Assembly: GCA_025093555.1 (NCBI GenBank)
Contig: JAIWNF010000066.1
Coordinates: 62,001 to 126,000 of the forward strand
Length of the DNA: 64,000 bases
Direction of reading: 5' to 3'
From: Circinella umbellata
Lineage: Eukaryota; Mucoromycota; Mucoromycetes; Mucorales; Lichtheimiaceae
In this document: positions 6,348 to 64,000 of the stretch, in pieces
Layout: the number at the start of each line of letters is the position of its first letter
Numbering within the stretch: the first letter of the stretch is position 1
Notes under the pieces: generated by a model
Databases searched by the model: none
The model's input: only the letters and a program-made list of their open reading frames with translations
Told to the model about the DNA's origin: nothing
Position numbers and translations under genes: made by a program

Positions 6348-9311
6348 GTTTAGTCTACCACGAAATTATAGCAGTCATAAAAATTCTTTCTGTTATTAAG
6401 AACGCCCCTGTAGTTTTTTTTTTTGTTCCTCCCCCTTTTTCTTTTTATTGTTAAATAACAACCACTATCATACATTTTAACGGGAATCTCAACAAGGAAT
6501 ACTGATTTAGAAATTAAAGATATTAACTACACTCATCGTGAAATAGTATCTTATAGAGAAAGAAAGTTAGTCATAACTTTGAATCAGACGAAGCTTTTAA
6601 AGTGTTTGAAAACAATCTTTTGAGTAAACATGTTACCTGGCGTTATCATCAACAATATAAGTTATCTGCTGCCTCTGTCGCTAGTAACTCTGCCTTCTCT
6701 GGAGCTCGTTTACTTGTTTTGAATGTGAAATACCGATGTGATCATGCTGGCAAACCTAAACATAAAAAGGTATTTGTGAATTCGAAAAGGTGTACTCATA
6801 AATACTGTGTCTATCTCATAGATTATATGGAAATATCATAGATAAAAGCGACAAAAACACCAATCCACTTCCTTCGCTTTCCTGTTATTAAGAAAAGAAA
6901 AGTTTCTCTCTTAATTAAAGTTGGATGTACTGCTTATTATAACAAAAAAACATTTGCAAACGGTGAAGTTCAACTTGTTTATAATTGGGAACACTGTAAT
7001 CATGATTCTACTGATCCTTCGTCATATATTTCGGAATCAAGACTATCTGATGAAATTAAAAAGTGGATTGTAGATGCTGTCGATAAGCATATGGACTGGG
7101 AATCCATCAAAATGGCATTACGTTTAAATGAGGAAGAATTGGATGACCTTGAAAATAACGACACAGTTGCCATGTTTCCACCTCCTCTTCTGATAAATTA
7201 TCACGATGTACAGAATGTTATTATCAGCAAAATGAATAATCTGTCAAGAAAACACTATCAAGACAAAGCGAGTGTTCAACTGTGGTTATCCTATCTAAAC
7301 GAACAAAAAAAGCATCATACTCTATTTCATCAGCATTCTCACAATGACCCATTCCTTGTTTCTTGGCTCTCTCCTTGGCAATTAAAATTATTGAAAAATG
7401 CAAAAGAATGGTGTATAGATGCAACACATAAAACCTGTACTTCGTTCAATAATCCAAATGACTCGTGTTTCTTATTCACTATTGTAATTAAGAGTCCTTC
7501 TACCAATAAAGGTGTACCTGCTTGTTTTTTCATCACGGATGCTGGAAAACAAACAATAATTGTCCAATAATTGAAATGGCTTTTGTATGTCACTGATCCT
7601 CTTCCTGTTAAAAAAATAATGATAGAATGTAGTCAAACAGAGATTAGGGCCCTTCGTGAAGTTTTTGGTGAAGCCGTTAGTGTGTTGTTATGTGATTGGC
7701 ATATCAAGAGAGCTTGGGAAAATCACTTGAAAACTGAGGTAAAAGTTGCTGGTTCTATTATGGAATCAGTTCAAGCCCGTTCAAGTATTCGTTCCATGCT
7801 AGATTGTTTGATGTATGCTGAAGAAGATGAATATGATTCGATGTTTGGTTTGTTTAAGGAAAAATATCAAGATAGCTTTGATAAATTTGTAAAGTATTAT
7901 CACGAACACTGGTATAATAGAAGACAACCATGGGCTTACCGCTGGCGAAAAGAAGCAAGTTTTTTCACAAATAATTTGATTGAATCATATCATAATCAGC
8001 TCAAGTCTAACTACTTTGGCCGTTCAAAAAATACTCGTGTTGATAAAATCGTTTATATTCTTTTTTCACGTCGTTATTGTTGATTATAGACAGGAAGCTT
8101 TTCAAATCCAAATTGGTAGTAAGAAGTTCTATTTGTCACCTCAAGAAAAGCAAAGACAAGATAAAGCAAATGAAATTGATGTTGAAAAAGCTGTTTATAT
8201 GATTGCTGAAACTGGTAACAATGTCCGTATTCACATAAATACATTTCTTGACGGTATTATTAATAATGATTCTTTACTTTTTAATAGTCCTTTTTTTGTA
8301 AATCATTTACAAACGATGACACAGAATATACTGTTTTTTGCTTTACGTAATAATTATCTTTCTTGCTGCACTTGTCCTGATTATGGTGTACTTTGTGAAC
8401 ACATCTTTCTTGTGTCTCGTATCGAAATGATACCATTTTCTGTTCGAAGAACTTACAGCAATAACAAGTCTACCTCTGCCACTTATAATACCCCCGGTAT
8501 AATTACTGAAGATAATTCTCAAAAGCAAGAATTTTTTACCAAGACTCGTGCTCGGGTAGTTGCTAAAATGGACGCTTTCTTTAACAAGTATAAAAATAAT
8601 AATGCTAGTTTAGATGATATGATTGATAATATGACACGATTTGAAAATATACTAGATACTTCCATTTCCGCAAATTCTTTCAATAATAAACAGCAATAAT
8701 ATCTAATGACTTTCTCAAAATAATCTGACCTCTTGGATTTTTTTTTCTAAAGTCCCATTTTTTAGGCGTTCTATACCGAGTTTGAAAGAATTTACAAAGT
8801 CTGTCCGTATCAAACTTAATATTTTTTTTATTTATCATTTATGTACAAAAAATAAAGGCTCCAAAAAGCGCTTCGCGATAGCATACCGCTAAAGCCGGGT
8901 ATGCAGGACTGGCTGAAAGAGCTCCACATGAGGCAACATAAAGAAATAAGAAAAAGTGAACTAATGTAAGGGTAAAATGCTATCTAAAAAAGTCTGTCTG
9001 TCGTTCAGCCACGGTTTTCAGTCAATTAATATTCCGACCTTTTTTTCACTTTCTTTTTCTCATCACCATAGCCAAAATTTTAATACATATATGAATAACA
9101 GGTCAATCTAATTTGATAAAAAAAAAGACCGTTATTTTATTGAGCTTACAGGTGATAATGGAATAGAAGTGGTCAGTATTCACGGCTACAAAAGCTTTTT
9201 TTAAAACTGATAATCACGCCATGAGCGAACAACATGAGTTTCGGAGTATAGAAACGGCTTTTGTCGTTACTCTAATGTTTGTGACGGTTAGATTTTCGTG
9301 GTAGACTAAAG
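6348..9311 (+). mobile_element. MULE-type DNA transposon (left arm copy)
   Basis: A 31-bp imperfect terminal inverted repeat is visible: 6,348-6,378 (begins GTTTAGTCTACCACG) and, inverted, 9,281-9,311 (ends CGTGGTAGACTAAAG). Between them lies one transposase-derived coding region ending at 8,699. Length is about 2.96 kb. No clean 8-10 bp target duplication could be read beside the repeats. The element sits wholly inside the palindrome arm, with its mirror at 10,072-13,047. The last 600 bp contain no gene but include a hairpin around the motif GCATACC...GGGTATGC near 8,880-8,912. Confidence 0.75.
6550..8699 (+). pseudogene. MULE transposase pseudogene (left arm)
   Basis: Joined frames give a Mutator-superfamily transposase. 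The order is an N-terminal FAR1/WRKY-GCM1-like Cys-His region (about 6,700-7,030), then the DDE core with the first Asp in C-I-D-A-T-H-K-T, the second site in I-M-I-E-C-S, the C-x-W-H motif (C-D-W-H-I-K-R-A-W) and the final Glu in T-N-N-L-I-E-S-Y-H, then a SWIM zinc finger (C-T-C-P...C-E-H). Breaks: in-frame TAG at 6,839, TAA at 7,568, and a 1-nt insertion in the T run at 8,061-8,066. The second acidic position is Glu where the related copy near 63.1 kb has Asp. The two stops are shared with the right arm and the frameshift is not. Confidence 0.85.
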
Positions 9312-10071: not shown

Positions 10072-13047
10072 CTTTAGTCTACCACGAAAATCTAACCGTC
10101 ACAAACATTAGAGTAACGACAAAAGCCGTTATATACTCCGAAATTCATGTTGTTCGCTCATGGCGTGATTATTAGTTTTAACAAAAGCTTTGTAGCCGTG
10201 AATACTGACCACTTCTATTCCATTATCACCTGTAAGCTCAATAAAATAACGGTCTTTTTTTTTTATCAAATTAGATTGACCTGTTATTCATATATGTAGT
10301 AAAATTTTGGCTATGGTGATGAGAAAAAGAAAATGAAAAAAGGTCGGAATATTAATTGACTGAAAACCGTGGCTGAACGACAGACAGACTTTCTTTAGCT
10401 AGCATTTTACCCTTACATTAGTTCACTTTTTCTTATTTCTTTATGTTGCCTCATGTGGAGCTCTTTCAACCAGTCTAGCATACCCGGCTTTAGCGGGTAT
10501 GCCATTGCGAAGCGCTTTTTGAAGCCTTTATTGTTTTGTACATAAATGATAAATAAAAAAAATATTAAGTTTGATACGGACAGACTTTGTAAATTCATAA
10601 GGCTTTCTTTCAAACTCAGGTATAGAACGCCTAAAAAATGGGACTTTAGAAAAAAAAATATCCAAGAGGTCAGATTATTTTGAGAAAGTCATTAGATATT
10701 ATTGCTGTTTATTATTGAAGGAATTTGCGGAAATGGAAGTATCTAGTATATTTTCAAATCGTGTCATATTATCAATCATATCATCTAAACTAGCATTATT
10801 ATTTTTATACTTGTTAAAGAAAGCGTCCATTTTAGCAACTACCCGAGCACGAGTCTTGGTAAAAAATTCTTGCTTTTGAGAATTATCTTCAGTAATTATA
10901 CCGGGGGTATCAAAAGTGGCAGAGGTAGAATTATTATTGCTGTAAGTTCTTCGAAGAGAGAATGGTATCATTTTGATACGAGACACAAGAAAGATATGTT
11001 TACAAAGTACACCATAATCAGGACAAGTGCAGCAAGAAAGATAATTATTAAAGCAAGAAACAGTATATTCTGTGTCATCGTTTGTAAATGATTTACAAAA
11101 AAAGGACTATTAAAAAGTAAAGAATCATTATTAATAATACCGTCAAGAAATGTATTTATGTGAATACGGACATTGTTACCAGATTCAGCAATCATATAAA
11201 CAGCTTTTTCAACATCAATTTCATTTGCTTATCTTGTCTTTGCTTTTCTTGAGGTGACAAATAGAACTTCTTACTACCAATTTGGATTTGAAAAGCTTCC
11301 TGTCTATAATCAACAATAACGACGTGAAAAAGAATTCAAATGATTTTATCAACACGAGTATTTTTTGAACGGCCAAAGTAGTCAGACTTGAGCTGATTAT
11401 GCTAAGATTCAATCAAATTATTTGTGAAAAAACTTGCTTCTTTTCGCCAGTGGTAAGCCCATGGTTGTCTTCTATTATACCCGTGTTCGTGATAATACTT
11501 TACAAATTTATCAAAGCTATCTTGATCTTTTTCTTTAAACAAACCAAACATCGAATTATATTCATCTTCTTCTTCAGCATACATCAAACGATCTAGCATG
11601 GAACGAATACTTGAACGGGCTTGAACTGATTCCATAGTAGAACCAACAACTTTTACCTCAGTTTTCAAGTGATTTTCCCAAGCTCTCTTGATATGCCAAT
11701 CACATAACAACACACTAACGGCTTCACCAAAAACTTCACGAAGGGCCCTAATCTCTGTTTGACTACATTCTATCATTATTTCTTTAACAGGAAGAGGATC
11801 AGTGACATACAAAAGCCATTTCAATTATTGGACAATTATTGTTTGTTTTCCAGCATCCGTGATGAAAAAACAAACAGGAACACCTTTATTGGTAGAAGGA
11901 CTCTTAATTACAATAGTGAATAAGAAACACGAGTCATTTGGATTATTGAACGAAGTACAGGTTTTATGTGTTGCATCTATACACCATTCTTTTGCATTTT
12001 TCAATAATTTTAATTGCCAAGGAGAGAGCCAAGAAACAAGGAATGGGCCATTGTGAGAATGCTGATGAAATAGAGTATGATGCTTTTTTTGTTCGTTTAG
12101 ATAGGATAACCACAGTTGAACAGTCGCTTTGCCTTGATAGTGTTTTCTTGACAGATTATTCATTTTGCTGATAATAACATTCTGTACATCGTGATAATTT
12201 ATCAGAAGAGGAGGTGGAAACATGGCAACTGTGTCGTTATTTTCAAGGTCATCCAATTCTTCCTCATTTAAACGTAATGCCATTTTGATGGATTTCCAGT
12301 CCATATGCTTATCGACAGCATCTACAATCCACTTTTTAATTTCATCAGATAGTCTTGATTCCGAAATATATGACGAAGGATCAGTAGGATCATGATTACA
12401 ATGTTCCCAATTATAAACAAGTTGAACTTCACCGTTTGCAAATGATTTTTTGTTATAATATACAGTACATCCAACTTTAATTAAGGGAGAAACTTTTCTT
12501 TTCTTAATAACAGGAAAGCGAAGGAAGTGGATTGGTGTTTTTGTCGCTTTTATCTATGATATTTCCATAATAATCTATGAGATAGACACAGTATTTATGA
12601 GTACACCTTTTCGAATTCACAAATACCTTTTTATGTTTAGGTTTGCCAGCATGATCACATCGGTATTTCACATTCAAAACAAGTAAACGAGCTCCAGAGA
12701 AGGCAGAGTTACTAGCAACAGAGGCAGCAGATAACTTATATTGTTGATGATACGCCAGGTAACATGTTTACTCAAAAGATTGTTTTCAAACACTTTAAAA
12801 GCTTCGTCTGATTAAAGTTATGAGTATCTTTCTTTTCTCTATAAGATACTATTTCACGATGAGTGTAGTTAATATCTTTAATTTCTAAATCAGTATTCCT
12901 TGTTGAGATTCCCGTTAAAATGTATGATAGTGGGTGTTATTTAACAATAAAAAGAAAAAGGGGGAGGAACAAAAAAAAAGAACTACAGGGGCGTTCTTAA
13001 TAACAGAAAGAATTTTATGACTGCTATAATTTCGTGGTAGACTAAAC
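10072..13047 (-). mobile_element. MULE-type DNA transposon (right arm copy)
   Basis: Same element as 6,348-9,311 in opposite orientation. Terminal repeats lie at 10,072-10,102 (CTTTAGTCTACCACG...) and 13,017-13,047 (...CGTGGTAGACTAAAC). Length is about 2.98 kb. The transposon pair therefore faces tail to tail across the palindrome centre, with the 3' ends of the two transposase genes about 2 kb apart. Confidence 0.75.
10699..12840 (-). pseudogene. MULE transposase pseudogene (right arm)
   Basis: Same protein as the left-arm copy, with the same TAG (near 12,560) and TAA (11,825-11,827) stops. It also has its own lesions: a TAG immediately after the catalytic-Glu motif (11,402-11,404), a TGA near 11,337, and a 1-nt deletion near 11,228 that shifts the frame before the SWIM finger. 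It lacks the T-run frameshift of the left copy. The two copies therefore died further and independently after they became separate sequences. Both would need trans-supplied transposase. Confidence 0.85.
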
Positions 13048-56220: not shown

Positions 56221-56579
56221 GTGAATTTTGACAAAATATATTTTATCAAGTATACATTTATAATAATATTGAATTACATATTCAATTTCAAATATGGGTT
56301 GAATAAAATATAAGAACTTAATTCATTGAATGAAGGAGGCATAATAGACCACTTTCTGACATTAAAAATCAACAACCCAAACCAAATAAACAGGTGATCC
56401 ATGGAGTTCGTCATAAAAAAAATATAATTCACATAAAAAAAAACTGAAGTCAGCGCACAGCATAAATTTTTTTCATGTTAACCAGAAACAAAAGAAACAA
56501 GTACTTACTTCACCCCAGTTATTTAATACATGAATGCCAGCACATCTTTACTGGCAGTTTTAGTTTTCTTTTATAGCTA
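56221..56579 (-). ncRNA. Candidate guide-RNA region downstream of the Fanzor gene
   Basis: In TnpB and Fanzor loci the guide RNA is usually transcribed from the end of the gene into the adjacent element end. Here the first 50 bp after the stop codon contain a hairpin, CTGCCAG...CTGGCA (56,535-56,556), in a sequence not otherwise explained. No conserved guide scaffold can be demonstrated from one copy, and the element boundary is not visible. Inference from position only. Confidence 0.25.
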
Positions 56580-59500
56580 TTATTCTTCTTCACTCGCAAT
56601 TTCTTCTCGAACAAGTTCTTCTTCTTGCATTTGTGCATTAATATGTTGGTTTTGATTATCAGGACGTCGAAGGTATAATGGTCTTGAGTTAGGATCACCA
56701 TTGCTATTGATATAAGCTGTAAATACTCGTCCAATATTATTTGCAGCGTTAAGATCCCTATCTATTACACGACCTAATACATTTTCACCATTCTCGTCAA
56801 TTCCTCGTTCACAATGTCGACACCATCGATATGGATATACATTACGCCTATAACCAGCTATATATACAATATTATTATTACGTATTATTTTAAAAAGAGA
56901 AGAGAAAGTATGATCATTTAGTTTTTAAAATATTCAATAGTAGCGTGATATTTTTTCTTTTCAAAAATCATCAAGTTGGAAACGATACAAACCAGCACGC
57001 ACGCGATCAGGACATTGTGATGTACGTGTTAATGGATTATTTTCTTCATCACAGCACCAAAGTATCTTTCTTCCCTTTCTGTTATTTCCAGTAGTTCTTC
57101 TTATTTTTTGTTTTCTATATTTTAAGAAGAAATAGAGTTAGTTTCTCACTTGAATAAAAAGAAAAACAATTAATATGATTTATCTTACCGATGATTTGTA
57201 CATATCCACATATCTCTATCTGGATCACCCCGACTTTGATGAACTAAAGATACTGTACGATTATGACATACAGAACACATTATACTTGTGTAAGACTCGT
57301 TAGTTAATATAACTAAAGTCCGACGTGCCAACACTGCACGAAATGTCTATATAATAATAAAGAAAAAGAGGTTGAAAAATGATTAAAATCCTGAATTTGT
57401 ATGATATGATGCTTTAATGTATATAAATGGTCACATACTTCCACTGGAGTAGGTTCATAACCCCTCATACTTGGTCTAAGCCTACCGTCACCATAAGCAA
57501 CAATGGTTGGCAAGGGTGGCACATATCCAGGTTGTCGTCGTCGTTCTCGACGAACTGCTCGTCGATGATTTTTACGTTCTTTTTTTGAATGTCTGAAAAA
57601 GGTAGGGAGTTGAGGCGGAAGTTGTGGCTGTAAATAACACAAAAAAAATTAGCAATTTCATACCAATGAATTTAATAATACAAGTGGATATACATACATC
57701 GTTTTGTTCATCCACACCAATTAGCAAGTTGGCTAACATTTCCAAGGCACTACGATGTGCTCCAAAATATCGCATACGCATTTCACGATGGCGGTAATGA
57801 AAATTAAAGTTTTCATATATTCTATAGTAAAGAATGTTAGCTATTATGAAGTGTTGCGTGCAATATAGACTTTTTTTTTAAAAAAAGAAAAAAAAAACTA
57901 CTCACTCTGTATGAAATTCACCTATCATACGAATGTATTGAATGAAATTTCCAGTTGTAGTCACTGTTGCTGGAACAAATCCCATCATATGGTAAAGCAG
58001 ATGTAAGTCGGTAGCTTCTCGACCACGTAATGCTTCTTCAGCGACGTATTGACGTCGGTTTTCAAGCTCTCTGTATTGAGACCACTTGAACAAAGATTGG
58101 ACTCTATTATTTAGGTAAATAGTTATAATATAATTAATGTATGCCAATTATAATAAATTATTATCTTAGTTAATATTACTACATATTAAAAGAAAAAAAA
58201 AACATACTGATATTGTCCGTTATGTAATTTTATTGTGTGCTGTTCACGTTGTTGATCTGTTTCCAGCGCATCCAGTGTATCCACAGCAGTGACCAAAGAA
58301 CGAATGCCTATTTGTTTTATTAATATAGATAATTTTTTAAATAACAGTAAGTACACATTTGCTCTTTGGTAAAGCACAGTTATAGCAATGTAACAATAAG
58401 TACGTTTATTACTGTACCTGGATCAATATATACTAAGCGAGAGTCAGCGGCGCGTTGTTGAGTTAATCCCTGAGGATTTTTAGAGAGATGATACATCCCA
58501 CGTCGCCATGCTGTCAAGTCTTGATTACGAGGATATCGTACAACTTCTCTAGAGGACTGTGGCAATCGCTCTAAAATCATATACGATTAAAGTTAAAAAA
58601 AAAAATAATGGGATATAAACATTTTGGTACAACATCAAAATAAAGTTGTAATAAGCAGTATATTTACCACCACGGATAGTTGCGATTGGTCTTCTGAACG
58701 TCAGTGACACCCCAACACCATCAGTTTCAATATAATTGTTGAACAAATACCGTTCACGATGTTGAGATGGAAACATACCGGCTTCTATAAATTAAAAGGA
58801 CACTCGTGCTATTCATCAGTTTTTGCTACGCCTTGAAGAAAATCATTGAAAAAGATCTTATTTCAAATAAAGAATACTTGCCGTCAGTTTCCCAATATGT
58901 ACAGCGGCGAGGTATAACGTGATTCAAATTAAATATATCCTCCCATATTTGTTCCATTTGAACAGAAGAAAGTGCTCGAAAGGCAGCAATTGTGATTAGT
59001 CGATGTTGTCGTCTTCCTCTTGGTGGGTTAGGTGACTAATAGCATGTATCCAACGTTTATATTAGAAGATACTCTGTTTAAAATATACATTGAATATTAA
59101 TAATACAATAGAAAATGCTTACCATGATATGAGGAGGCATGTGGGCGTTAGGGTACTGAATTGAATAAATTTTTAAGATATGATATAGTGACCGTTGATC
59201 GATTGGCATGTAAGCCACTTGATGCTTTGCAACAGGAAGTACAGTCCACCGTCTTACACCATTTTCTTCTATTTGGTTCAGTAAATATACTAAATAAGTA
59301 GGCAATCGTTGATAAATGTTTACTTGTTGCACGCTACTTGGCCTTTCAATGATACTTTGGGCATTTTCATCAGCAAACGCTGTTTGAAAAGCTTGATGAT
59401 GTTCTCTGCGTGATGTAAAGCAAAAGAAAAGAAAATAAGTTCGTTAAATACATAGAATAGTATTATACAGTAAAAAGTATCAGGTACTGTAATAAAAAAA

Positions 59501-61039
59501 AAGTGACACTTACGCGTAATAATTATTTACTCTGTTTCGGATGGCAGCGGGAAACATAGAAATAATATTGTTCGGGAGATGATCAGATCGGTCCACGAGT
59601 TGCTTGTAAATTTTATTTGCTGTTAGATTAAAAAAAAAAGAAAGATAATAAGAAGTTATTATTTATTAATTTCAGCAATGTTAACAGTAAACATAAATTA
59701 TAATAGCAAAGCATGATTTAATACGTTACCCAAAGTATTAGGTGATTGTCGTAAGTTTATATTAAGCTCGGTAACCAATCCATTAATGTAAGATAACCAT
59801 ACTCTTTTCAAAAAGTCAGGAATATTCATAAGCAAGTGATTACGGGCATCTATTATAAATGGTAATAAATGACAAAAATTAGACTCTTGTATAGGTAACA
59901 AAATAAAATATAGAATATCAAGGGACGACGATAAAATTCAACAATACATACTTGTCATCGCTTTTCTGGCAAAATTTCTTCTAACTTCGGCACGTAAACC
60001 AGGATCCCATGCAGGTACTGCGTAATAAGCTAATAGTATTTAATTAGAGCCTATTACAGTACATAATCATGCACTATTTGGTAATTCATAAAAACAAACG
60101 TAAAGCTTACCTTGACCATTATTTTGTACACGAGCAGGATTAAAGTGATTTGTAAATGTATTATCAAGTTCAGGGTAAGGTGTTGGCTAAACAATATATG
60201 TATATATGTATATGGTTAATAAGTTATTCATGTTAGGCATGTGGACAGTCAATACATAACTCTATAAACAAAACTTACTCGAGCAAGAGCTTCACCAGGT
60301 GGTGTCGTCACCAAATGAAAGGCATTTTCCCAAAAGTTTTGATCTGTTAATGCAGGACGAGTGACATTGGCAGGATCTTCAACAGATCGTAACACATGTA
60401 ACGTTACAAGGTTCATTGCATCCCGTCGAAGAATAGTATATTCTTCTGCAAGTCGACGTATGAAATTCTATAAAAAAAACCACAATTCAGTAAATACTTT
60501 TCATTATATATTTGCACGTGAAGTTTTAACTACAACAAAAAAAAAATGCATATATAATTACCAACATATCTGGCGTACCAGGTGGTGGCTGCCTTGCACC
60601 TGCCAAATAAGGATTTTCTAGAATGGTTTGGAGTTTACATTTACGTGTAACAACTCTGTTACGTCTTCTTGCTGCTCTGTGATTATCGGGGAAAATTTCT
60701 CTCAAATATGCTCTAGCTCGTTCTCGTCCTGATAAAACACATAATAAAAATAAGTAAATACATCTAATATTGTTATATTGATATGCGTGTGTGTATAACA
60801 TAAAGTACTACATTATCCAAATACTTACGTTCCGCCAATGTTTCCGGTCTTGGATTTGGACCCCGTGTTACGGGGAATACCACTTCTTGGTCTTCAATAA
60901 TATCAGCATCAGATCGATTACTTAGAAATGAAAACCCTGACCCGTTTGAATTAAATGAATTTATGGAATCGATTGACATGGCATCCTCAGTGTCGTCATC
61001 ACCTACGCTGTCGGCACTATCAATATCCATAGGCTCCAT
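56580..61039 (-). CDS. Fanzor-like RNA-guided nuclease (eukaryotic TnpB homologue)
   Basis: Eighteen exons (5' to 3'): 61,039-60,829; 60,728-60,562; 60,467-60,279; 60,186-60,111; 60,029-59,952; 59,885-59,730; 59,619-59,514; 59,405-59,123; 59,035-58,882; 58,784-58,668; 58,570-58,418; 58,307-58,208; 58,103-57,906; 57,821-57,698; 57,627-57,439; 57,346-57,189; 57,114-56,993; 56,857-56,580. They sum to 2,859 nt, 952 residues, unbroken. RuvC-I is I-D-P-G-I-R-S-L-V-T-A-V-D (Asp about 562). A basic run lies at about 715-735. The RuvC-II-like part has V-A-Y-G-D-G at 747-752 with Glu at 762, 767 and 784. Zinc-ribbon cysteines are C-S-V-C (791/794) and C-R-H-C (873/876). RuvC-III is D-R-D-L-N-A-A-N-N (Asp 895). 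Acidic N-terminus and C-terminus. Known Fanzors make RNA-guided DNA cuts. Activity here is inferred. Confidence 0.8.
58785..58881 (-). other. GC-AG intron in the Fanzor-like gene
   Basis: Intron 9 begins GCAAGT instead of GTAAGT and ends TAG. Both flanking exons are in phase only with this junction, which gives ..E-T-D-E-A-G-M-F-P... The other 16 introns are GT-AG. Confidence 0.75.
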
Positions 61040-61069
61040 GGCTGGAGAATAAGAACAAGTAGCAATAAA

Positions 61070-61130
61070 GAAAATGTAAGAAAATGTAAGAAAATGTAAG
61101 AAAATGTAAGAAAATGTAAGAAAATGTAAA
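61070..61130. repeat. Decamer tandem repeat just upstream of the Fanzor start
   Basis: Six copies of GTAAGAAAAT end in an A run, starting 31 bp upstream of the ATG. It would lie in the 5' leader or core promoter of the minus-strand gene. Confidence 0.9.
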
Positions 61131-61221
61131 AAAAAAAAGAGATGATGAATAATTTTATGAGGTTTGCAGAAACCGTTCTTTTATACTTAACCGTTGGCTA
61201 AATAGATCATTTTCAGAACAG

Positions 61222-61956
61222 CCATTTTATCAATGACTATTTTTTATCAATGACCATTTATCAATGACTATTTTTTATCAATGACCATTTTATCAATGAC
61301 TATTTTTTATCAATGACCATTTATCAATGACTATTTTTTATCAATGACTATTTTATCAATGACTATTTTTTATCAATGACCATTTATCAATGACTATTTT
61401 TTATCAATGACCATTTATCAATGACTATTTTTTATCAATGACCATTTATCAATGACTATTTTATCAATGACTATTTTTTATCAATGACCATTTATCAATG
61501 ACTACTTTTTATCAATGGCCCATTTTATCAATGACTATTTTTTATCAATGGCATTTTATCAATGACTATTTTTTATCAATGAACATTTTATCAATGACTA
61601 TTTTTTATCAATGACCATTTATCAATGACTATTTTTTATCAATGACTATTTTATCAATGACTATTTTTTATCAATGACTATTTTATCAATGACTATTTTT
61701 TATCAATGACTATTTTTTATCAATGACCATTTATCAATGACTACTTTTTATCAATGACCATTTATCAATGACTATTTTTTATCAATGACCATTTTATCAA
61801 TGACTATTTTTTATCAATGAACATTTATCAATGAACATTTTTTATCAATGAACATTTATCAATGAACATTTTTTATCAATGAACATTTATCAATGACTAT
61901 TTTTTATCAATGAACATTTATCAATGACTATTTTTTATCAATGACCATTTTATCAC
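61222..61956. repeat. Minisatellite of TATCAATGACTATTTTT-type units
   Basis: About 735 bp of alternating units of about 14-18 bp built on TATCAATGAC followed by CATTT, TATTT or TATTTTTT, over 40 copies. Higher-order pairs (long plus short unit, about 31 bp) are visible. Variants include AACATT near 61,820-61,900. It is a non-coding spacer between the Fanzor leader and the MULE remnant. Confidence 0.95.
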
Positions 61957-61959
61957 TAA

Positions 61960-62713
61960 AAATAAAGATAGGAAAAGAGAGAGAAAAAGCCAATGAGACC
62001 TCAAAAGAACAAAATTTAATTGTAGCCAATATAATTGAGGTGTAGTCAATTAAAACAAAATATCCTCTCTATTTATACATGAGATCCTCATCATCACTTC
62101 AGCAGGATGTATCAATTATGTTTCTGAGAATTGTGATAATAAAGAAAATGATTTTTAAATTAAACTTTGTGCGGTTGACGACATGATCCGTCTACACAGC
62201 TGTTACCCATTTGTAGGCGAAGGTCATTGTAGTCTCCCATTTTAATAAATATAACTTTTAACCTTTTATCATTTTTAAAGACCGCGGACGTCCGTATTTC
62301 TGAAACACCCAGTCGTCAGATTAACAGCACCAGACATACTTGTGATTATATCTTTTACTTTAAGCAAGAAAATATGTGTACCATAAAAAGAAAGGGAACA
62401 AGATAAATGGTGTACGTACAATAATTACGTATTGTACCATTTAGTATAAATGTTTTGATTTAATTATGAGTATATGATATAATGAAAGCAAAGAATAATG
62501 GTTAATTCCATTACCGGAAAAAGATTTATTGAGAAAAACAAAGAGTTACTTTGAATACTACTTTTTGTTTGTTGTTATTCAATATAATAATTATACAGTA
62601 GAGGAAAAGTGTTTGATTGTTATTGTTACTACGTACCAACAAATATTACGAATACTTTTCTACAGTATTTCTACGTATACGTACATGTTGTTATTAAAAA
62701 TTATGATACATAC
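61960..62713. other. Spacer between minisatellite and MULE remnant
   Basis: A/T-rich with a less biased block at 62,160-62,340 (GCGGTTGACGACATGATCCG, CCGCGGACGTCCG). No gene or clear repeat end. It could include an element terminus. Confidence 0.5.
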
Positions 62714-64000
62714 AGGTCTCCAAGCTTTACACCATTTCTCTCTTTTAGGGTACCAATATTGGTACATATAATCATAGAATTCAACATAACCATTTACATC
62801 GTGCCACATTGATTTAAACGAATCCTATAGAACCTCAAACAAATCAATACTATCACAATTCATCAAAAGATTCAAAGAATTACGAGCTTGCCGTTGTTGT
62901 TCTTTTGTTTCATGTGTAGAATTTTCGACTTTGATCTTATAGAAATTAAAACAATGAGTTACAAGTTAATACATCGTACCAAAACAAATAATAACGTTTC
63001 ATATATAAAATAAAACCAAATTCACTTACCATTTTTTTATATGTTTCTCCCATGCTCTTTTAATGTGCCAATGACACAAAAGAACCTGAACAACATCACC
63101 CTATACTTGGTTTATAGCATTTATTTCAACAGGACTACAATCGATCATTATAGACTTAGGGACAAAGTTGATGACACTTTTTAACCATTCAAACCAACTA
63201 GCAACAGAGACTGTGGTTTCCGAGTTTGTTATCATAAACCCAACAGGACAACCTTTGTTTGTATCAAGATTTTTGCAAACAATGGTAAATAAATAGCAAC
63301 TATCAGAACTTCGAATAAATGATTTACATGTTTTATGTGTCGAATCAACACAAACAATATCCTGCCTTTGAAGAATCTAAAAAGAAATACCATAATAATC
63401 AATATCGAATCAATCATCAATTAACAACAGATCATTTTTACTTACTGGTTTTTGCCATTTGGATATCCAAGCAATTGTAAATCTATTATTATCTTCATCA
63501 ATATTTGACAATACATCATATCCTTCATCATCAAGATACTTAAGCCAAAGACGTACACTATCTTTATCAAGTGCTGCTTTTTTTGAAAGTCGAGCAAGTT
63601 TTGTTTGAATGAGATTTTGGACGTCTTTATAATGAATAAGTTCTGACACAGGCAACAAGTTTGGGTTATTATCAAGCTATACATTTGTTTTTTTATAACA
63701 ATTAGTATTACATCATTATTATCATATATTAAGTTTACAAAACATACGTAATCTCTTTCTTTACGCGTCAAACGCAATGCATTCTGTATAGCTTCCCAGT
63801 CCATATTTTTATCAACACGTTCAATAATCCATTTGCGAGCTTCTTCAGGTAAACGAGATGCAATAATACTTTCTGAATTTGTAGGATCATGATTATGGTG
63901 ATACCAATAATAAACAGCTTCGTATGAATCATCTGAATACTTATACAAATCAATCTTAGCAGGACAATCAACTTTAGGAATCATTTTGGATGGATCACGT
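62714..64000 (-). pseudogene. Second MULE transposase pseudogene, 5' end outside window
   Basis: Exons: beyond 64,000 to 63,748; 63,676-63,446; 63,376-63,030; 62,935-62,714. It shares motifs with the palindrome transposases: M-D-W-E-A-I-Q-N-A-L-R-L, V-C-V-D-S-T-H-K-T-C (first Asp), G-C-P-V-G-F-M-I-T, I-M-I-D-C-S (second Asp, intact) and C-H-W-H-I-K-R-A-W. Only moderately similar overall. Two TAG codons interrupt it (in ..I-N-Q-V-stop-G-D-V-V.. near 63,109, and ..F-E-V-L-stop-D-S-F.. near 62,826). Coding after 62,714, including the catalytic Glu and SWIM part, is missing. Unlike the palindrome copies it has recognisable introns. Confidence 0.8.

Follow-up and report, generated by a model that had tools for sequence, protein, structure and literature searches.

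A divergent, intron-rich Fanzor1-type gene, probably encoding an RNA-guided nuclease, on a non-autonomous MULE-derived transposon of Circinella umbellata

The 64,000-nucleotide stretch of Circinella umbellata DNA analyzed here (the window; contig JAIWNF010000066.1, positions 62,001 to 126,000 of the forward strand) carries on its minus strand, running from 61039 to 56580, an intron-rich gene for a Fanzor-like protein, and as its copies and their ends indicate, this gene is the cargo of a multi-copy DNA transposon of ~8 kb (nested insertions excluded) that is derived from a Mutator-like element (MULE). The features of the element in window coordinates are:

56403..64000, on to C174:127006 (window 65006), minus strand: Fanzor-bearing MULE-derived element, delimited by ends common to other copies and by the target duplication
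62660..64000, minus strand: MULE transposase remnant, 3'-truncated, with in-frame stops, extending past the window edge (from PF10551, a six-copy alignment and L049)
61222..61955, no strand: tandem repeat (unit 31/63 bp) separating the transposase remnant from the Fanzor gene
56580..61039, minus strand: Fanzor gene, 18 exons, 928 (or 940) amino acids
60829..61039, minus strand: exon 1, acidic N-terminus
60562..60728, minus strand: exon 2
60279..60467, minus strand: exon 3
60111..60186, minus strand: exon 4
59952..60029, minus strand: exon 5
59730..59849, minus strand: exon 6
59514..59619, minus strand: exon 7
59123..59405, minus strand: exon 8
58882..59035, minus strand: exon 9 (GC donor)
58668..58784, minus strand: exon 10
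58418..58570, minus strand: exon 11, RuvC-I Y-I-D550-P-G
58208..58307, minus strand: exon 12
57906..58103, minus strand: exon 13
57698..57821, minus strand: exon 14
57439..57627, minus strand: exon 15, YGDG
57189..57346, minus strand: exon 16, NE772SYTS and first CxxC
56993..57078, minus strand: exon 17 (alternative start 57114)
56580..56857, minus strand: exon 18, second CxxC, DRDLNAANN, acidic tail
56403..56579, minus strand: 3' noncoding tail to the element end, candidate guide RNA scaffold region (alignment of 19 copies)

Splice-aware dynamic programming, together with enumeration of the doubtful junctions, joins the 18 exons into one open frame and bears out the coordinates, strand and exon join of an initial annotation made from the sequence alone. 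The 952-residue length given there is not reproduced: the frame encodes 928 residues with exon 17 starting at 57078 or 940 with a start at 57114, two choices rated equally good (residue numbers throughout are those of the 928-residue model), and the 96 joins of exons 16-18 that use legal splice sites span 887-943 residues, 952 being found in none; an exon 17 start at 57117 has no AG before it and is not a legal join. Sixteen of the 17 introns are GT-AG and one is GC-AG, and G+C content is 40.6% in the exons and 23.1% in the introns. All 17 introns are kept in the five other recent copies of the gene that hold the full set and in a decayed copy on contig C15, the set being incomplete in copy C195, which ends at a contig edge. 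The acidic extensions described at both ends are confirmed, the first 60 residues having 15 D/E and 2 K/R and the last 40 having 10 and 4, respectively.

The predicted protein displays the C-terminal pattern of Fanzor and TnpB proteins: RuvC-I D550 within YIDPG, E772 within NESYTSIMCSVC (NESYTSxxC), a CxxC...CxxC ribbon with CRHC as its second pair, and RuvC-III as DRDLNAANN. By motif position the RuvC aspartate, the alternative glutamate beside the zinc ribbon and the final aspartate are D550, E772 and D869/D871, with 222 residues from the first to the second and 97-99 from there to the last. Although the initial annotation took a GDG motif as the RuvC-II region, E772 aligns with the glutamate of NEYLTT in TnpB-like L79 (PDB 9b0l, NEYLTTKTCSNC) and with that of other Fanzor-like open reading frames (ORFs) of the same genome (one being QEERRTSVTCSSC), and the RuvC-II glutamate is likely E772, next to the first CxxC, rather than part of the GDG motif. 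The published motif D-X(125,275)-[TS][TS]XX-[C4 zinc finger]-X(5,50)-RD (Bao & Jurka 2013), once a zinc-finger spacing of 5-80 is allowed, is found in the window protein and in 0 of 20,000 shuffled versions.

The sequence is nevertheless very divergent by every comparison made. The zinc-ribbon profile Pfam TNB (PF07282, cut-off 26.3 bits) gives the window protein 19.6 bits and its C-terminal piece 23.5, and reaches 30.6 in a relative, P0002, of C. umbellata. Among the 8000 scored candidates sharing most words, in a search of 5.8 billion proteins, there were two relatives, one from Circinella minor and one from C. umbellata, each of them apparently a wrongly predicted gene model; a search with the C-terminus (597 candidates) gave one match, among those same two. 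Profile comparison with three Fanzor/TnpB-like pieces aligned 15 residues only, around DRDLN. The motif set, the open frame, the conserved introns and the TNB match of the relative together support the original assignment of an intact, intron-rich Fanzor-like nuclease. The same genome also contains a second, quite different Fanzor-like family, L001 and L002 on C200 and C156, whose TNB domain scores clearly (50.6 and 37.5 bits).

The search for copies covered the element's own genome (50.8 Mb in 210 contigs), where at least seven recent copies are present: that of the window, C101, two on C136 (C136a and C136b), C195, C197 and C5. These have their introns in common, diverge by 0-1.1% and retain an intact Fanzor frame in five cases; the older, decayed C15 copy and fragments also occur. 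In gene orientation the window copy has its 3' end at 56403 and its 5' end at C174:127006, ~1 kb past the window edge, and has lost 22 bp near the 3' terminus. Three of the six copies with both ends show target duplications, of 8, 9 and 9 bp, which read in gene orientation ATGGATCA in the window copy (window 56395-56402 and C174:127007-127014), ATTAATCAT in C136b and ACTATGATG in C197. In addition, the 9-bp site 3' of the C101 copy is that found 5' of a copy on C37, and the two are probably one insertion split by recombination or assembly. As to terminal inverted repeats, short blocks common to the two element ends can be seen by eye, and one local alignment, of the window copy trimmed of its true ends, revealed no terminal repeat. 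Rfam and tRNA scans of the window gave no matches.

Some copies have been altered by later events. Near its 5' end and outside the window, the window copy bears a ~425-bp insert with inverted AGGGTGTCTCAAACAT ends (L040:536-960 = C174:126536-126960), probably a non-autonomous DNA transposon. The C197 copy contains a nested 5.9-kb insertion with long helicase-like ORFs (L034:4978 to L035:858 = C197:100978-106858), which looks Helitron-like by eye; this segment had been considered as the lost part of the transposase and was rejected as such because it is a nested insertion with these ORFs. The decayed copy (L039, C15:1-10000) shows many C>T and G>A changes, as in decay by methylation or resembling repeat-induced point mutation.

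The 5' quarter of the element is occupied by the transposase remnant, which gives a sub-threshold match to the MULE domain PF10551 at 63104-63373 (22.6 bits, cut-off 27.6) and stops short of the 3' exons. One in-frame stop is common to all six aligned copies (the alignment being without C195 and C15), and the group that includes the window copy is further damaged. Consequently, the earlier statement that no disabling mutation is present holds for the Fanzor frame and fails for the element that carries it. The 3' truncation and the stop shared by all six copies led to rejection of an autonomous MULE plus Fanzor, and with a broken transposase, movement must have been in trans; there are many MULE relatives elsewhere in the genome. 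Contig C57 has two copies of a related MULE, one of which was read (L049, C57:697800-702300), the other being at C57:720316, and searches of these found neither Fanzor nor the Fanzor-side end. L049 matches the first 1.87 kb of the Fanzor element at ~95%, has a sense codon in place of the shared stop, and keeps a 3' part in which a SWIM finger exceeds its cut-off of 19.6 (22.8 bits); its PF10551 score is 21.8 bits, below the cut-off. Thus compared, the Fanzor element looks like a MULE in which the 3' half of the transposase and the 3' end have been replaced by the tandem repeat and the Fanzor gene. The two C57 copies lie in inverse orientation, share their flank and make up a segmental inverted duplication.

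Differences among the seven recent copies bear on whether the cargo has been maintained. In the exons of Fanzor there are 42 changes, of which 25 are synonymous (one of them stop-to-stop) and 17 nonsynonymous, where 12.05 synonymous are expected from random placement of the same mutation types; 25 was reached in 0 of 5000 simulations, and the P values simulated here and below assume independent changes. Much of the synonymous signal is clustered and comes from C195, and without this copy the result is weaker but stays (12 synonymous and 11 nonsynonymous of 23, expected 6.9, P 0.015). Relative to the window copy, four of five copies (C136a, C136b, C197 and C5) have no indels in the exons and 3-5 each in the introns, whereas C101, whose frame is broken, has 2 exon and 7 intron indels. 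The transposase remnant, in contrast, has 9 synonymous and 19 nonsynonymous changes in six copies, one of the 28 being nonsense (expected 5.9, P 0.10), and the synonymous counts of the two genes differ at P 0.03 by the Fisher test, the numbers being small. The decayed C15 copy is near neutral (30 of 111 synonymous, expected 24.3, P 0.12), with many C>T and G>A changes. D550, E772 and D869/D871 are untouched by the 42 changes. A purifying signal in Fanzor beside a remnant that looks near neutral suggests that selection kept Fanzor in the recent spread and not clearly the transposase; i.e. the one seems to be kept while the other decays. The purifying selection lends indirect support to the earlier suggestion that the Fanzor is active, the window copy itself being short of 22 bp at its 3' end.

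Insertion sites share a sequence. Of 8 distinct 5' flanks, 7 (window, C136b, C197, C5, C101, C37 and C46, the exception being C136a) have CCC immediately before the duplicated site, which is 9 bp (8 in the window) and starts with A; against a background frequency of 0.5% this gives a binomial P of ~1e-15, uncorrected for the choice of the motif after viewing the sites. Of the 19 rows aligned, 17 include the 3' terminus, and the base that follows it is A in 16 of them; two of the 17, C183 and C185, look identical. The parent-like MULE without Fanzor provides a single independent site (two C57 copies, same flank), and CCC is missing there. The pattern CCC|A-N8 is a candidate target-adjacent motif (TAM) or a transposase preference. 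At the other end, all 19 aligned copies retain at least part of the 3' tail, and 16 of them have AATAAA near the element end, 7 nt before the terminus in complete copies; it is missing in L047, L048 and the window copy, where it falls in the lost 22 bp. So close to the end, this signal could allow transcripts to run into flanking DNA. Conservation of the tail is not clearly above that of exon 18 (four copies).

The gene, its motif set, the element ends, the target duplications, the recent copies, the purifying selection on Fanzor and the decay of the transposase are established at the sequence level, and the best explanation of them, which we hold to be quite probable, is that a non-autonomous DNA transposon of MULE origin carries the gene for a divergent RNA-guided DNA endonuclease of the Fanzor1 type. 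In the mechanism proposed, a MULE transposase supplied in trans would insert the element at CCC|A-N8 sites; an RNA, either the Fanzor transcript or one arising in its 3' tail, would read past the element end into flanking DNA and so comprise a scaffold plus a guide composed of the target duplication and flank; Fanzor would cut the element-free copy of the site, with the CCC side as TAM; and repair of the cut site would copy the element back in, as proposed for TnpB. That Fanzor and not the transposase maintains the element in this way, by cutting at a C-rich TAM (CCC) under a guide of target duplication plus flank followed by break-induced copying, is a tentative and doubtful part of the proposal; if true, a transposase-dead MULE would persist with its nuclease held intact by selection while its transposase rots. 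A 2023 Nucleic Acids Research paper (PMC10711439) proposes that the duplications join the RNA scaffold, and if they do so here as well, the guide would begin past the 9-bp site.

A number of observations weigh against the Fanzor1 endonuclease reading or its mechanism. No profile reaches its cut-off for the window protein and the NCBIfam models give none, a PDB search found no sequence match between it and the solved Fanzor structures, and AlphaFold models of the relatives P0002 and P0001 are unusable (pLDDT 29.5 and 32.5), too poor to show a WED/REC fold in the N-terminal part. Three of the six two-ended copies (C5, C101 and C136a) have mismatched flanks in place of matching duplications, although these flanks and the identity of the C101 3' flank with the C37 5' flank make recombination or assembly joins likely. 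C136a and C136b show no difference in the Fanzor region as aligned (0 of 4668 positions) and belong to different groups in the transposase part, so that such joins do exist and the copies are not independent. The 3' tail folds no better than shuffles (four tests, z +0.33 to -0.86), and among 31 predicted pairs in 13 copies only 1 is changed on both sides (covariation term +0.21). Finally, transposases have site preferences, the pattern surrounds the duplicated site, and CCC could stem from the transposase alone. We consider it an even question whether CCC|A-N8 reflects the transposase's target choice only and is no Fanzor TAM. The parent-like MULE site, which is without CCC, is entered in favor of that view, being a single site that cannot decide, whereas a TAM is expected directly 5' of the would-be guide sequence, as is said of Fanzor in PMC10432273, and this is where CCC is located.

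Fanzor might alternatively be plain cargo, spread recently by a MULE transposase in trans and now adding nothing to movement. The MULE-like ends and duplications, the many MULE relatives in the genome and the guide RNA search of the 3' tail, with no significant folding and almost no covariation, all fit this, but purifying selection acts on Fanzor and is not clear for the transposase remnant beside it, and we regard this explanation as rather unlikely, if one to be taken seriously. Some TnpB derivatives are nuclease-inactive DNA-binding regulators, and a Fanzor-like protein of that sort would accord with the high divergence, the acidic extensions and the long spacing of 222 residues from RuvC-I to the glutamate; it is improbable given that D550, E772 and D869/D871 are all there and unchanged among the seven recent copies. 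A host-domesticated Fanzor gene with a cellular role, which the intact frame and purifying selection might suggest, is rejected as scarcely credible, being contradicted by the target duplications and by a copy number of at least seven near-identical, dispersed copies with common element ends.

The preferred reading, a Fanzor1-type endonuclease on a MULE-derived element, has precedents. Bao & Jurka 2013 (PMC3627910) reported Fanzor1 from MuDR-type elements of Rhizopus, Phycomyces and Mucor that lack a MuDR transposase and have 9-bp duplications, as well as Mucor MCi-2 Fanzor1 elements whose Crypton transposase is truncated; RNA-guided cutting by Fanzor1 was demonstrated by Saito et al. 2023 (PMC10432273) and, including the Mucorales protein PpFz1, in a Cell 2024 structure paper (PMC11423790). 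ROr-4, PBl-3 and MCi-4 share with the window element a Fanzor1-type protein, a Mucorales MuDR-type element, ~9-bp duplications and, as they are described there, no functional MuDR transposase (PMC3627910). The window element differs in that it keeps a recognizable truncated MULE transposase, that a Fanzor-less parent-like element survives and that the host is Circinella; its sequence is too divergent for the searches used, and the likeness is to their published description only. The MCi-2 elements of Mucor circinelloides likewise have near-identical Fanzor-bearing 3' parts and include one subfamily joined to a transposase gene without its C-terminus, but this transposase is of Crypton, not MULE, type and the duplications are 11-12 bp, ATAATTNNNN(N) (PMC3627910). 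PpFz1 of Parasitella parasitica is also a Mucorales Fanzor1 with a RuvC insertion, of which the motif spacing predicts a counterpart in the window protein that may or may not correspond to the FRI domain; PpFz1 has no detectable sequence match in the PDB search, and its TAM is ATN, unlike the candidate CCC (PMC11423790). SpuFz1 of Spizellomyces has the same D...E...D RuvC triad (D383, E541 and D606), although with spacings of 158 and 65 rather than 222 and 97-99, and a CATA TAM (PMC10432273). The earlier description of an undescribed system is therefore too strong, Fanzor1 in Mucorales MuDR-type transposons having been published in 2013 (PMC3627910).

The family appears to be new and its kind has been known since 2013; a search of one paper collection found no paper combining Fanzor and Circinella. 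A further 2023 survey of Fanzors may already list the family. The role of Fanzors for eukaryotic transposons is unsettled, and the evolutionary setting here is unusually clean: a selected Fanzor beside a decaying transposase, near-identical copies, defined ends, a Fanzor-less parent-like element and a consistent insertion motif make the idea that Fanzor aids persistence directly testable, and allow a TAM and a guide boundary to be predicted for a divergent family of nucleases. Elsewhere in the window are two other MULE transposase relics, in opposite orientations at 6893-7663 (plus strand) and 11732-12505 (minus strand), each with 44% identity to the remnant and an in-frame TAA.

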